Origin: Chitinophagaceae bacterium
Lineage (GTDB): Bacteria; Bacteroidota; Bacteroidia; Chitinophagales; Chitinophagaceae
Assembly: GCA_947447465.1 (NCBI GenBank)
Contig: CANFKE010000004.1
Span: forward strand, 62,001-126,000
Reading direction: 5' to 3'
DNA: 64,000 nt
The position numbers and the translations under genes were made by a program. The notes under the pieces were generated by a model. The model had not been told where the DNA came from, did not search any database, and was given only the letters and a program-made list of their open reading frames with translations. The stretch's first letter is position 1; every line of letters begins with the position of its first letter. Shown one piece after another: positions 470-43,893 of this stretch.

Positions 470-3400
470 TCACTTTTTAGCAGTAGTTCCGGTGATTTCC
501 AGCCTCTTCTCATTATCATCATTTTTCTTGTCTATCAGCAATACATGTGGGTCCAGTACTACCTTATATGGTTTTGTACTAGTAGGAATGCTCAATTTGG
601 TAATGCCATCCTTTAGCTTGTATCTTGTAGTTGAGAGTACTGTGTTCTTGTCTTTGTACACTGCAATATCTATATAGTCATTACAGCTTATCGGTGTTTC
701 TTTACCATCTCCTGCTGCGCTCAGTTTCTTTATATCTACGGTCACATTGGTTATATACTGATCTCCGTTTTTTGTAGCAGTGGCATCAGTTATCTTGTTA
801 TCGTAGATAATTATTTTTTCAAAGCCATCGGTTATCATGTATTGCATAGAGTCTGGTGTTACAGCGCGCATACAAGCCAGAAAGTCCAGTGTGGTAGGGT
901 ATGGAGGAGCTTTGAAACCATACTTGTTAATGAAGTTCCTGAGTCCCTTATTGATACTGTCTTCACCAATATACTTGCGTAGCGATGTCATGATGATGCC
1001 TCCTTTTTGGTAAAGAATGTATTGCTGCCCCCCGTCCACTAATGATAATGTCTTTTCTTTTTCAGATTCAGCTGAGCGGGCAGTAAGATATTTATCCATC
1101 TCTATACGCAGGAATTTCTTCAGGCGCTCTTCGCCATATTGTTTTTCCATAACAGTTATAGCGCCATATTGTGCCAGTGTTTCTGATAGCATATTAGAGC
1201 CTTCTACATTGGCACCCATTACCTGGTGGGCAAACCACTGATGGGCAACCTCATGGGCAGTAACGTAGAAGGTATAGTCTATATCCTCCTTGCTGCTGTC
1301 ATCAATGTTAGCTATGAAGCCTATCCCTTCTGAGAATGGAATAGTATTAGGGAATGATTGTGCAAATGTGCCGTAGCGCGGAAATTCCAGAATGCGGACC
1401 TGCTTATGCTGATATGGAGAGAAATGGGTAGTATAGTATGACAGAGCTTTTTTCATCCCGTTCAGCATGCGCTGCAGGTTGTATTCATGACCTTTGTGGT
1501 AGTATATTTCCAGATTTATACCATTAAATACTTCTTTCTTCAACTCATATCTTGCAGATAGGAATGAATAGAAATTCATGATCTTACTATCCATTTTGTA
1601 ATGGAAGTATCTGCGGCCGTTTTCTGTCCATTCTTTTTGCAGATAACCGGGGGCTATAGCTGTTTGGTCTGCAGATGTACTTACCGTAGCGTCAAAGGTC
1701 ACGAAGTCGGCATCCTTGAAGAATCCGTTGGTATTGTACTCGGCGGTATCAGTTATAGGATTCTCGGTAGCACGGTAGCCCAGACCATGCTTTTTTCGCT
1801 CTGTATTGTCCGATAATTCATAGCCATTGTTATAGCCTATAGATGGCATGAAGCTGGTATTGTTCATAAATGTGCCATTATATACCGGGCTCGATAATCC
1901 TGTGAAGTCATGAGGAAAACCACGACTTATTTTATCTACATTGAAAGCCAGGGTCACTGTATCTCCTGCCGCCAATGGCTGAGCCAGTTTGTATATTCTG
2001 TAGCCGAATGTAGTGTCATTCATCTGCATTTGTGCACCCTTACTAAAGGTCAGCAGGTTTACTTTTATCTCATCAGGGATCAGTATGTGAAGTGAATCAA
2101 TTGCTTTGCCTGTTTTGTTTTGAAGCACATAAGTTCCCGACGCATGAAGATTGCGCTCCATTGGGAAGATGTCCACTTTCACTACTACATCTGTGATCTT
2201 CGGTTGTGCGCTATGCTCAAATTTTTTATATTTCTTTTCAAAATCTGCCTGCAATTCACCTTGGTCATATCCACTCATGTGTTTATTCAGTACATTGGTG
2301 TTATAGTAGATGAAGCTGCCACAACCAATGAAAATGATTGCTGCTACTGTTATCAGCAAGAACGAACGTTGCTTTGCGCTTTTACTCGCTTGCGATAGCC
2401 TCCAGGAAAGGGTAGCTTCTGTTCCTCTTGCCCAAAGCAGGCTGCTCAATGCCGCCAATATCAGGCCGAATGCTGCCCAATAGGTTTTGAATATGATGAA
2501 CGGGAATACCGTATGGCCGAATCCATTCATGTCAGAATAGGCGACCCCTGCTGATGAATTGAGAACAAAAAGGTTATGTTTCAGCACGGTTGATGCAAAG
2601 AATGTATTCCACACGTAAAAGAGTACCACAATAAAGTAACCTATATACTTATTACGGACAAGCGTTTGTACAAACACGCACAATACAGCCAATATCCAGA
2701 AAGAGATAAGTCTGAATCCGAACAGGTATTTGATATAGAGCAGTGGTTCAAAATTGAAATATCCTTTGAACAGTTGCACGGTCATTCCGCATACCATGAT
2801 CAATGCTATAAGTATGCACTGCATAAAGATGAGACCGGAGAGTTTACTTACATAGAACACCCAGTTAGGCACCGGTAAGGCATCAAGGATATTGTCCATT
2901 CTGTTTTCACGGTTACGCCACACGATCTCTCCGCTGAAGAAAATGGTAAGGATAACAATGAATAATTGAAAGGTACTGCCGAAATACTCTACTACCTGAT
3001 AGGTTACAGGATAGGTAGCTGTGTCATAGATGGCCTTGCCCAATTGAAAGGAAACAATGAATAGGAACAACATTCCGAATAGAATGATGATCCTGAAATA
3101 TACGTTGCGCAATATAGTTCTGCACTCATTGACCGCAAGTCCCCATAGGTTTTTCAGATTGGTTGCTGCTGTGAATGAGCGGCTTGCCTGTGGTAATTTA
3201 TCTTGTGCAAATGAGATCTTCACAAATGCATTCGGGTTCGTTGGCGATTTTTCCTGTACTCCTGATTTACGGAAAGATATTCTTCTGGCCGACGAAGTAA
3301 ATGAGAAACTTAAATATCCGCTTATGAATACTAAAGCGGCAACTCCTAACCACAGCAATCTGTTCCACAATAGTACTCCTGTAAGTTGATAGGAAAGATT

Positions 3401-4105
3401 GTTCTTGTCATATGTACTCCAGTGTTTAGATATCACTTCTTTTGCCTGATCTCCCATAGGGTCCAGCAAGGCGGCCATTGTTTCATATTGTAGTGAGCCT
3501 ACAAATGCGCTGGCAAATCCTATGGTCACCCAGTAGATGATCAGTGATAACCAGATGATGAATATATCTCTGGCTATAAGGCTCACAGCAAAAAAGATAG
3601 CTCCCTGCAACAGAAGGTTAGGCACCACACTTTGAAAATAGGCCTGCACATAGGGCATCAAATGAAAGGCACCTACTTTGTCTGCACTCACCCATGGCGA
3701 TACATACGCCAGCATCATGCCGAATGCAGGACCGGTAAGTATGAGCATACATACGAATGACGCACCGGAAAATCGACCGAACAGATAACTGAATTTATTG
3801 ACCGGGGTAGAGAAGATGATATTATGCGTGTTATATCTGAAATCCTTTAGCACCGCATTGCCGATCACAGCTACAACTATAATTGCGCCTATCCATCCGT
3901 CTATCTGCGCAAACAGGCCATCTATCAGTAATGGAGAATTGGCCATTATCTTCTCTCCGGCCATGTTTACATTGGCACTTTTAAACGCGCCACCTACTAT
4001 CAGGGCAATGAAGAATGCTATCGCAAAAAGGATCGTAAAGTATATGTATGTGGAAAAGGTTTTGAGCAACCTCTTGACCTCAAATGAAAATATAGAACTG
4101 AACAT
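470..4105 (-). CDS. ABC-2 type permease fused to M1-family metallopeptidase
   Basis: A 1211-residue membrane protein. Roughly the first 600 residues hold two sets of hydrophobic segments of an ABC-2 permease; the rest is an M1 aminopeptidase-like domain. The zinc site is visible: HEVAH (His951, Glu952, His955) followed by Glu975. The Glu lies 19 residues after HEVAH instead of the usual 18, and the GxMEN substrate motif is replaced by a PFSEGIGF-type sequence; both fit the 'permease/M1 peptidase' fusion family as I recall it. The gene starts 22 bases after the ABC ATPase gene, so the two likely form one exporter. The substrate is unknown; the peptidase part may sit outside the inner membrane (inference). 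Confidence 0.9.
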   Translation of the reverse strand: MFSSIFSFEVKRLLKTFSTYIYFTILFAIAFFIALIVGGAFKSANVNMAGEKIMANSPLLIDGLFAQIDGWIGAIIVVAVIGNAVLKDFRYNTHNIIFSTPVNKFSYLFGRFSGASFVCMLILTGPAFGMMLAYVSPWVSADKVGAFHLMPYVQAYFQSVVPNLLLQGAIFFAVSLIARDIFIIWLSLIIYWVTIGFASAFVGSLQYETMAALLDPMGDQAKEVISKHWSTYDKNNLSYQLTGVLLWNRLLWLGVAALVFISGYLSFSFTSSARRISFRKSGVQEKSPTNPNAFVKISFAQDKLPQASRSFTAATNLKNLWGLAVNECRTILRNVYFRIIILFGMLFLFIVSFQLGKAIYDTATYPVTYQVVEYFGSTFQLFIVILTIFFSGEIVWRNRENRMDNILDALPVPNWVFYVSKLSGLIFMQCILIALIMVCGMTVQLFKGYFNFEPLLYIKYLFGFRLISFWILAVLCVFVQTLVRNKYIGYFIVVLFYVWNTFFASTVLKHNLFVLNSSAGVAYSDMNGFGHTVFPFIIFKTYWAAFGLILAALSSLLWARGTEATLSWRLSQASKSAKQRSFLLITVAAIIFIGCGSFIYYNTNVLNKHMSGYDQGELQADFEKKYKKFEHSAQPKITDVVVKVDIFPMERNLHASGTYVLQNKTGKAIDSLHILIPDEIKVNLLTFSKGAQMQMNDTTFGYRIYKLAQPLAAGDTVTLAFNVDKISRGFPHDFTGLSSPVYNGTFMNNTSFMPSIGYNNGYELSDNTERKKHGLGYRATENPITDTAEYNTNGFFKDADFVTFDATVSTSADQTAIAPGYLQKEWTENGRRYFHYKMDSKIMNFYSFLSARYELKKEVFNGINLEIYYHKGHEYNLQRMLNGMKKALSYYTTHFSPYQHKQVRILEFPRYGTFAQSFPNTIPFSEGIGFIANIDDSSKEDIDYTFYVTAHEVAHQWFAHQVMGANVEGSNMLSETLAQYGAITVMEKQYGEERLKKFLRIEMDKYLTARSAESEKEKTLSLVDGGQQYILYQKGGIIMTSLRKYIGEDSINKGLRNFINKYGFKAPPYPTTLDFLACMRAVTPDSMQYMITDGFEKIIIYDNKITDATATKNGDQYITNVTVDIKKLSAAGDGKETPISCNDYIDIAVYKDKNTVLSTTRYKLKDGITKLSIPTSTKPYKVVLDPHVLLIDKKNDDNEKRLEITGTTAKK

Positions 4106-15607: not shown

Positions 15608-16154
15608 ATAGCTGCATAAAAATAGGGTTTAAACATTTAACGCGTTTGTTAAAATAGTATGGTTGACAAAGAAGCATTATTTTCTATAAATGTCGATCTC
15701 TCATGACGTCATAATATTTTCAGATTATTTGGGATAAATACGGTTCTCATATTTTAATAGTTTTTTACCCTACATGCAATTCGCTTGCAAAAATGAAAAC
15801 CCCAATAATTATATGCTTATAAAAAATATTCGTTACTTCAATTACCATATCCCAATCAACTCATAACCCGCTACTTACATCAATATGTCCACATTTTTGT
15901 GAATATCTTTATTTGCCACACCCATTTACCCGCATTAATTTACACTCGATTTATTTGTTATCCCAAGCTTTCGCAAGTGAAGGGTAGCAATGTTCTTTGA
16001 CATATAAACACTATCTCCACTCCATCCCAATGCCATAATTGGTGCTGATAATTCCTTGCTACTGGCGAACATGTACACCATACAATTGGTGAATAGTCGA
16101 TACGCTCCGTGAAAATGAACGATCTTGATAATAATTTCACCCTGATTTAGAAAA

Positions 16155-16312
16155 TAAAGTGGCAGAAAAACCGGCAGTAAGTGGCAATAAGTGGCAGAAA
16201 GTGGCAGTTTTTGGCAATTTGTTAAAACACACTCAAAACCTTACCCATAGAGCAATACAGCCCAAACACAGTCTCTAAAACTGCCACTTTTATTAAAAAC
16301 TGCCACTTTTCT
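16155..16312 (+). repeat. AAGTGGCA/TGCCACTT element, copy A
   Basis: The left arm has several direct copies of (A)AGTGGCA(G) spaced 10-11 bases apart. The centre carries CAAAACCTTACCCATAG at 16234-16250. The right arm has two inverted copies (CTGCCACTTTT) separated by ATTAAAAA. The arms are complementary and could form a long hairpin. It matches the reverse complement of 43394-43537 along its whole length with scattered differences. Confidence 0.8.
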
Positions 16313-16338
16313 GATCACAAGTAGTTTGTTCTCTGGTA

Positions 16339-16358
16339 GAGACGCATAATTGCGTCTC
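16339..16358. repeat. REP-like hairpin GAGACGCA-TAAT-TGCGTCTC
   Basis: Perfect 8-bp stem with a TAAT loop, preceded by GTA. GTAGAGACGCA also appears once, without its partner arm, at 43332-43342. Hairpins of this form are scattered repeats in many genomes; no T-tract follows, so it is probably not a terminator. Confidence 0.6.
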
Positions 16359-16432
16359 CACAGCGACAGTGCCCCATCGACCCGGTAAAAATATACATGA
16401 ACACCAACAGGTAACTTATTTAGTGAACCACA

Positions 16433-42998: not shown

Positions 42999-43393
42999 GT
43001 TATTCTACTCGTAAGAATATTAAGAATGTGAGAATGTAGCGAATATGAAAATATGAATTGTGTTGGTTATGGGGTAAGTCATCTATTTTCAGTTCATAAG
43101 AGGTGTTTTTTTATCAATTGTTCATTTTTTTAGTGTTTATATGGCTTAATTGTTTGGAGATTAGTGTGTTGTATATGATTTAATATTCTTTTGAGAATTT
43201 ATTTTCCCGGATTTCTACTATTGACTTGTCCCAAGATTGGTTTGTTGGCTCTTTTCGAGCGTTGCAAACGACCTGCAGATGAACCCTAGTTGCGAACCAG
43301 GGCCAGTGTTGGGATGTTTTGTTCTGCAGGTGTAGAGACGCAACCTTTGATATAAACTCCGTGTGAACATTAGTCACTACAAAAGGTTTATTT

Positions 43394-43537
43394 GAAAAGT
43401 GGCAGTTTTTAATAAAAGTGGCAGTTTTTTGATGGGTATTTCACTGAATCGCCCTATAGGTAAGGTTTTTGAGGTTTCAGATGAATTGCCACTTTCTGCC
43501 ACTTTCTGCTACTTTTTGCCACTTACTTCCACTTTTG
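43394..43537 (-). repeat. AAGTGGCA/TGCCACTT element, copy B (inverted)
   Basis: Read on the minus strand it has the same layout as 16155-16312: AAGTGGMA units (AAGTGGCA, AAGTAGCAG, AAGTGGCAG, AAGTGGCA), then CAAAAACCTTACCTATAG (43454-43471), then two CTGCCACTTTT copies separated by ATTAAAAA. Similarity continues beyond the core on both sides with gaps. Confidence 0.8.
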
Positions 43538-43869
43538 AGAACTGTCATTCGAGGTGCCTCGTCCCTAAATAGGTTTATACATTGGTCAGATAATCCCTGT
43601 ATTTGTTTAGTGATATTATAATCGGGTTATCTATGATCGCAGATCGTATGGGTGTTTATCAGATAGTTCTATATTTCAATGATCAACAGAAAATGATGCT
43701 TGAGGGGTGCAAATTAGGATGTGAATCAGGATTTGAAAAATAAAGATATTCACAAAATTTACGTCTGAGTCGTCTGAAACGTGCTGTGGGTAAGGTTTTG
43801 GGTGGGGGGATTTTTGTGGATATGTTTTTTTGAATGATGTACAAACCATAAAGAAATTTGACCTAACCT

Positions 43870-43893
43870 AAAAACGCCCCGAAGGGCGTTTTT
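43870..43893 (-). terminator. Terminator after the beta-barrel protein gene
   Basis: Ten-base-pair stem (AAAAACGCCC with GGGCGTTTTT), CGAA loop. It overlaps the TAA of the gene by one base; the U-run lies in the stem's own arm. Confidence 0.72.

Follow-up and report, generated by a model that had tools for sequence, protein, structure and literature searches.

Modular intergenic elements with a promoter-boxA-type leader and phased repeat arrays form a dispersed family in Flavipsychrobacter

Results

Two related non-coding elements lie in opposite orientation

The stretch of DNA analysed here (the window, 64,000 nucleotides) belongs to a draft, 92% complete genome of the genus Flavipsychrobacter, Chitinophagaceae (G000), and holds two related non-coding elements. 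Copy A, on the forward strand, is neighboured by a transglutaminase-core gene and a DCC1-like gene, and copy B, on the reverse strand, by a gene with a sub-threshold match to an autotransporter barrel and a metallo-beta-lactamase-superfamily gene. An intrinsic-terminator-like hairpin at 43871-43893, recognised by eye as AACGCCC..GGGCGTT with a T run, lies just after the gene ending at 43893 and separates that gene from copy B.

A preliminary description of the window had proposed that 15893-16358 and 43332-43823 carry the same series of signals in opposite orientation, and direct pairwise comparison confirmed this. When 15880-16360 (+) was aligned with the reverse complement of 43330-43830, the repeat and centre part agreed in 79.7% of 148 columns (E 2e-29), while TTTGTGAATATCTTTATTT formed a second, separate block common to both copies (20/20, E 1.3e-6), these E-values being valid for that single pair; the similarity therefore exceeds one short run. 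Other short matches between the copies were weaker, and many set one repeat unit against another. The absence of a coding frame was likewise borne out, with zero open reading frames of at least 100 amino acids over either copy. The claim that the order of the blocks is kept broke down for the GTAGAGACGCA block. This block is a palindrome in its own right, found inserted at further loci as well, and copy B carries one half of it only, in the opposite direction relative to the rest. In the second copy two features had gone unlisted, a further arm upstream and an additional P motif (43774-43826), and the element extends from about 43395 to 43826. The promoter/boxA leader, the size of the family and the relatives in other genera were all absent from that first reading. 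No Rfam family reached its gathering threshold within the 64-kb window.

The leader module

We divide the elements into a leader module, H, and a repeat module, R, either of which sometimes occurs alone (L039, L048). From its 5' end, H comprises an inverted repeat around TGTGRATAT, a predicted promoter with 19-nt spacing, a small hairpin and an rRNA-like boxA. The inverted repeat takes either a wide form, AACATATCCACAAA ... TTTTGTGGATAT with a P motif between the arms, or a short form, GATGTTCACATTTTTGTGAATATC. It is followed by TTTATTT(G) and, after 19 nt, by TTAATTTGCACC, the spacing being 19 in 45 of the 46 H blocks of G000 and the related genome G004. The left arm was present in 44/46 blocks and the right arm in all 46, the latter because the search was built on the right arm.

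Copy A has the short-spaced inverted repeat ATATGTCCACATTTTTGTGAATATC together with the -33 element TTTATTTG (15882..15915, +), and its -7 box TTAATTTAC (15935..15943, +) lies 19 nt after the -33 TTTG. On the reverse strand, copy B presents in turn the left arm AACATATCCACAAAAA (43811..43826), an extra P motif lying between the two leader arms (43774..43800), the right arm with the -33 region TTTTGTGAATATCTTTATTTT (43737..43757) and the -7 box TAATTTGC (43709..43716). The fourth -33 base was G in only 17/46 H blocks and T in 21/46. Scored over 39 G000 sources (38 loci plus the window, counted once), the -7 box fell into the TAnnTTGY class in 21 and read TAATTTAC in 14. Transcript mapping in Flavobacterium psychrophilum distinguishes a TAnnTTGY box from the sigma-A TAnnTTTG box, according to the available excerpt of that study (PMC9723704), and the -7 box described here resembles the TAnnTTGY class, a resemblance that is only suggestive because our leader models favour that box.

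The hairpin 5' of boxA varies in sequence (mean z -1.41 over 36 loci, 21 of them below -1). In copy A it sits directly 5' of boxA in a boxB-like position (15954..15991, +; fold -12.2 kcal/mol), and the boxA itself, GTTCTTTGACATA, occupies 15992..16004 (+); the boxA of copy B, GATCATTGAAATAT (43671..43684, -), is degenerate and the hairpin upstream of it weak (-0.6 kcal/mol). With up to two mismatches allowed, boxA was found in 36/46 H blocks against 1/46 upstream and 0/46 antisense controls. The rRNA operon of G004 carries the copy A string, GTTCTTTGACATA, in its 16S-23S spacer and GTTCTTTGAAAGATTGG before the 16S gene. The nut-like arrangement, in which the promoter is followed by a hairpin and boxA, is thus found in Flavipsychrobacter and, elsewhere, in some genera only.

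The repeat module and inserted sequences

Module R consists of an array of X units, a core P (approximately CAAAACCTTACCCACAAAGCATTTCAGCC) and then two copies of CTGCCACTTTT, termed X', which are inverted relative to X. In copy A (+) these parts are an array of GTGGCA-type units with a 10-nt period (16157..16217), the core P, CAAAACCTTACCCATAGAGCAATACAGCC (16234..16266), and the X' pair CTGCCACTTTTATTAAAAACTGCCACTTTT (16281..16310); in copy B (-) the array lies at 43487..43536, P at 43445..43473 and the X' pair, again CTGCCACTTTTATTAAAAACTGCCACTTTT, at 43395..43424. X runs of three to six GTRGMA units in strict 10-nt register characterise 72 of 73 R modules, and the distance from the last X unit to X' is 63-65 nt in 59/73 and 73-75 nt in the other 14, a class in which we read the last X unit as degenerate. 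Pairing of X with X' appears in the predicted fold of all 73 modules. The antisense strand folds equally well (mean z -3.35, against -3.19 for the sense strand), and GTAGCA, a frequent variant of X, does not pair with TGCCAC. Locus L049 contains, upstream of a normal GTGGCA unit, a unit in which GTGGAA repeats precede the usual P and CTTCCG and CTTCCAC follow it, so that both sides have changed together. Tandem X-P-X' units occur in L025 and L027. No conserved fold was found for P and its surroundings, and a conserved RNA fold of P was accordingly rejected.

REP-like palindromes and M blocks are inserted between modules at many loci. Copy A carries such a palindrome, GTAGAGACGCATAATTGCGTCTCC, outside the core (16336..16359, +), a sequence present at only some loci and in varying positions, and copy B an M block, TAAACAAATACAGGGATTATCTGACCAATGTATAAACCTATTTAGGGACGAGGCA (43555..43609, -), which resembles contig-end repeats of another genus. 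An M block in L101 of G010 is missing from the G004 counterpart, L098. The contig-end repeats in question, GTAAACC..CAGGATTATC..GGACGAGACA, were seen in G023 (L053-L057) and in similar form in G002 (L058); they may mark the terminus of a multi-copy insertion element at which the assembly breaks. The termini of IS21-family elements adjoin the istA/istB genes. The M block was rejected as an IS21 terminus: it is similar only to the multi-repeat contig ends of G023, no gene was found attached to it in the regions covered, and M-type repeats were lacking from the two IS21 gene regions L086 and L087 and from the G000 region with full-length IstB. In L061 of G004 (3369-3650) a sequence containing GTTTGTAACGC and an AACATATCCACAAA arm is repeated in tandem upstream of an element, with three copies spaced by about 96 bp and a fourth further on.

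About 40 loci in one genome

The two window copies are short intergenic elements of a large family that occupies about 40 loci in their own genome. Copy B (43332-43823) as a query gave at least 76 matches there at E<=0.001, itself included, so that the pair is no two-copy coincidence; 40 of 68 first-look candidates were scored. We grouped the 76 matches into 40 loci, 38 outside the window and the two window copies. The elements are hence short, non-coding (as judged by the absence of frames of at least 100 amino acids over the two window copies) and dispersed, as MITEs are. Five of 39 genomes matched: besides G000, G004 (32 matches) and G010 (29) were comparable, and G002 (1) and G023 (5) yielded fragments only. 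Among GTDB 220 contigs the X' pattern returned 40 stretches, all from Flavipsychrobacter stenotrophus (strain RB1R16 or MAG JR-DAM-100519-112), and among viral contigs it returned none, scans that may leave out records of the window's own genome; a viral origin was rejected on this count.

A triple GTRGCA pattern occurred 69 times in G000, 62 times in G004 and not at all in four sister genomes, the reversed pattern giving 0 in all six. Within G000, 68 of the 69 triplets lie inside the 40 loci and the remaining one at the edge of contig C32. The arrays are specific to these elements, and an autonomous transposon with GTGGCA ends was rejected on the G000 counts. By a crude open-reading-frame rule, the gene upstream of the Flavipsychrobacter loci is on the same strand in 27 cases and the opposite strand in 20, and the downstream gene in 25 and 20, respectively. 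This absence of an orientation bias indicates that the Flavipsychrobacter unit is not the 5' leader of one type of gene, and the unit looks autonomous.

Motifs outlast the sequence between them

The preliminary description had taken the conservation of motifs amid drift as a sign of a functional element, and this conservation holds at orthologous sites in related species. Over 16 ortholog pairs, motif positions agreed at 1550/1872 (0.83) and other positions at 3344/6506 (0.51), with gaps counted as mismatches; because members recur among them the pairs are not independent, there is overlap between some of the motif labels, and one pair (copy B with L137) is partly misaligned. By class, agreement was 0.68 for boxA, 0.76 for the X array, 0.93 for X' and 0.95 for the right arm with the -33 element, and motif conservation was also visible by eye in the inspected parts of the aligned ortholog sets. 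That motifs outlast linkers at orthologous sites suggests that the leaders and X' are under constraint.

The copies nevertheless turn over, as shown by sharp-edged paralogs, one relative without the element and swapped interiors. L025, L027 and L036 are recent paralogs, 85-94% identical, with one sharp left edge at three unrelated sites; on the right they do not stop at a common point, the end falling behind X' in some and behind M in others, and no target-site duplication was seen. G010 has no element at the L036 site, around which the sequence has diverged. Comparison of G004 with G010 revealed wholly different interiors inside 89-96% identical flanks (L112/L067 and L119/L069).

Relatives in other genera

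A model of the long leader with boxA (R1), derived from Flavipsychrobacter alone, found matches in 8 of 117 family genomes, with 21 matches in G094 and four each in G104 and G058. A strict leader-to-boxA pattern matched just two of 396 genomes of the order (G000 and G094; reversed control, 0) and was too exact, so that a model of the short leader without boxA (R2) was used instead. R2 matched 20 of 394 family genomes in 12 of 101 genera, its own included; at least four matches were found in seven genera (again including its own) and one to three, partly near threshold, in the other five. Copy numbers per genome are lower bounds, since at most 14 matches were scored in each; seven of the 20 genomes had one to three matches (G005, G067, G092, G473, G556, G575 and G670). 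At four loci (L248, L250, L254 and L258) the R2 match is a plain promoter that lacks an array and lies 64-126 nt ahead of a gene, and because some matches are such simple promoters the R2 class is not clean.

Sixty of the listed R2 matches were taken regardless of what lay downstream. Short motifs were enriched (p<=0.02, 100 shuffles) downstream of 28/58 loci against upstream of 2/59, and boxA with one mismatch was present in 19/60 against 1/60 and 0/60 in controls; without the four G004 loci the figures were 25/54 against 1/55 for enrichment and 16/56 for boxA. In all, boxA was seen in six genera: its own and those of G058, G589, G116, G104 and G094, the last solely in loci retrieved with boxA-containing models or patterns. 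At one mismatch it was found in none of the loci from G006 (0/10), G522 (0/6), G559 (0/5), G087 (0/5), G486 (0/2), G497 (0/2) and G575 (0/2).

One leader type precedes different X families. The arrays are built of AAATGTC/GACATTTT in G087, G486 and G058, of GGAAATAA, TCGGGCA and ATAGTCAAT in G589, of GTGAAA in G116 and of TAGTGC in G104, with CCGGAAATT and TGGGGCA also in G058; several of these motifs were picked by eye, and only 2/9 G058 loci passed the enrichment test. G006, a sister species in the same genus without GTGGCA arrays, has leaders with repeat enrichment at 1/10 loci only and copies of CGGCAGAAA and TGCCGG recognised by eye; at G559 enrichment was 1/5. In G589 some copies after P share the direction of the copies that precede P. 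A direct-repeat chain test of 21 loci with 60 shuffles gave 0/60 for L163, L165, L173, L175 and L180 and 1-3/60 for L166, L168, L170, L172 and L182, the remaining 11 not being outstanding, and some of the other X motifs have 10-11-nt periods (L175, L180).

A P-like string with up to seven substitutions followed the leader in 10/75 loci outside the F. stenotrophus group, against 0/75 antisense and 2/750 shuffles. These loci belong to three genera (G087, 5/5; G486, 1/2; G058, 3/14; G589, 1/10), and no such string was found at that threshold in the loci of G006, G094, G104, G116, G497, G522, G559 and G575. At nine substitutions 25/75 loci scored, but so did 11/75 antisense and 75/750 shuffled sequences. 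For G006, G589, G522 and G559 the next gene is on the same strand in 25 of 31 cases, on the opposite strand in five and missing in one; over all 74 other-genus loci the counts are 40, 26 and eight (crude open-reading-frame rule). Rfam returned five weak hits in 20 loci outside the F. stenotrophus group, all below gathering, the best to a piece of cspA (L228, 1-280).

Discussion

We have described a family of dispersed intergenic elements in which a leader with promoter-type and boxA-type signals precedes a helix-phased repeat array, a core and an inverted pair of repeats. The interpretation that we put first, at not quite an even chance, is that the elements are small, modular, mobile transcription units making an untranslated RNA under purifying selection. 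According to this model, RNA polymerase would start at the leader under the control of a putative TGTGRATAT-binding protein, and NusB/S10 loaded at boxA would let it pass the untranslated stretch without a Rho stop. The transcript would fold X against X' and present P in a loop of about 65 nt, where P could be the acting part, on some RNA or protein partner. X may be able to change provided that both sides change jointly, in which case X families would turn over as the leader, and P in part of the genera, stays. Copies would spread via duplication or transposition. Of the three options raised in the preliminary description, a structured RNA and a protein-binding array both remain, but a decayed mobile element fits poorly as worded, since the copies, for all their turnover, retain promoter, boxA and arrays instead of losing them to decay.

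The strongest rival is that the elements are selfish, non-autonomous MITE-like transposons whose X arrays bind transposases or recombinases encoded elsewhere, the promoter being cargo or a by-product and the X families reflecting different enzymes; we regard this as a serious possibility, though less likely than the transcription unit. It would readily account for the common sharp left edge of L025, L027 and L036 (85-94% identical at three unrelated sites), for the L036 site without an element in G010, for the wholesale swapping of interiors within 89-96% identical flanks between G004 and G010, and for the tandem X-P-X' units and the patchy distribution. However, copies would then be expected to decay evenly, yet motifs are kept at orthologous sites, and a common leader would be unexpected if X alone matters. 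Nor was an enzyme found with the arrays: of the 69 G000 GTRGCA triplets, 68 fall within the 40 loci, and the exception is at a contig edge. The enzyme families covered were PF13102, one strict tyrosine-recombinase motif and IstB. The strict motif, applied to 287 loci and the window, matched once, inside the window at 4.6 kb from the closer of the two elements; G006 and G058, both rich in leaders, lack PF13102 integrases; and none of the tested arrays occurred at 26 integrase loci, where a single weak leader-like string (L297) and two chains of three were all that turned up. A separate proposal, that the arrays are the attachment site of a tyrosine recombinase, was rejected, as no recombinase (by PF13102 and the one strict motif) lies beside the arrays or is present in every genome that has them.

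Transcription would be secondary if X units on one helix face load a cooperative binder, as in an operator array or a nucleoid or centromere-like site, with P between the arrays. Plasmid parC sites have arrays of approximately 11-bp repeats on either side of a core, a likeness to X-P-X'. We judge a protein platform at the DNA level improbable overall, but the non-pairing GTAGCA variant, the same-direction copies and the equally good antisense fold make a DNA-binding array a serious rival. The tolerated GTAGCA variants and the same-direction copies of G589 are easier to reconcile with a binding site in double-stranded DNA than with a stem in RNA, and a platform would likewise suit the strict 10-nt register of three to six units per run (72/73 modules), the 10-11-nt periods of some other X motifs (L175, L180) and the two X-X' distance classes of 63-65 nt (59/73) and 73-75 nt (14/73). 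Against it, boxA works only in RNA and yet is seen in six genera, and several X families within one genome (G058, G589) would call for several binders for one job. That the elements are a neutral graveyard, repeats having accumulated by chance in long intergenic gaps into which REP-like palindromes and M blocks are also inserted in many copies, is very improbable given their fixed order and spacing and the conservation of motifs at orthologous sites.

If, as in the transcription-unit model, the leader is active, this bacterium would run some 40 additional transcription units bearing rRNA-type antitermination signals, and its dispersed repeats, instead of being debris, would supply regulated RNA. 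The leader, and partly also the core, persists through exchanges of the repeat motif, which offers a natural experiment on the functional parts of a dispersed element. A broader generalisation, which we hold to be on the doubtful side, is that these loci represent a class found throughout the Chitinophagaceae. Its members would be untranslated RNA genes or gene leaders, numbering dozens in a genome. Each would join a fixed promoter, in many cases with boxA, and a recognisable core P to recognition arrays that are helix-phased and exchangeable, the specificity motif being swapped from one locus to the next. They would stand alone in relatives of F. stenotrophus and mostly before same-strand genes in some other genomes.

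We found no description of this element in the open-access literature. The nearest known kinds, going by the excerpts available of their descriptions, are transcribed small interspersed repeats, namely pneumococcal BOX and Porphyromonas BrickBuilt, from which the antitermination-type leader and the motif swapping separate our elements as far as those descriptions allow. BOX of Streptococcus pneumoniae is similarly dispersed, structured, in part transcribed, slow to turn over and with relatives in few other species, and its authors favour a parasitic over a functional nature; the excerpt of its description, the sole basis of this comparison, mentions no promoter-boxA leader or swapping of repeat motifs, whereas here the leaders and X' are under apparent constraint (PMC3049150). 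The BrickBuilt MITE of Porphyromonas gingivalis, from the same phylum, is likewise intergenic, with 19 copies in one strain and a leader-array-tail plan, and promoter activity is recorded on the BrickBuilt side; compared by its excerpted description, it differs in having abutting 23-nt units and small inverted-repeat ends, in contrast to the 10-nt register, the inverted copies after the core and the boxA leader of the present elements (PMC4596501). Outside rRNA operons boxA is a known regulatory signal, according to the portion available of one account (PMC5725501). Such non-rRNA boxA leaders share with ours a promoter and then boxA ahead of an untranslated or regulated RNA, but here boxA precedes no rRNA or fixed gene and there are dozens of copies. 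The TAACTGA repeats of Beggiatoaceae also form many sets, are short, direct and intergenic, occur in a limited range of genomes and are possible regulator sites; they differ in that most lie just upstream of start codons in the main genome, and the available excerpt describes no common leader or core (PMC4679880).

Some individual loci in other genera deserve mention. A TCGGGCA element lies upstream of a uvrB-like gene (product from translation only) in both G589 (L246) and G522 (L251), a shared placement that suggests an old position. A leader-type promoter without an array stands about 100 nt before a ComM/Mg-chelatase-like gene, also identified from translation only, in G522 (L250) and G559 (L254). 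Finally, L263 of G087 holds two tandem units 178 bp apart, with GACATTTT arrays and a P-like core, much as R modules are repeated in tandem in L025 and L027.
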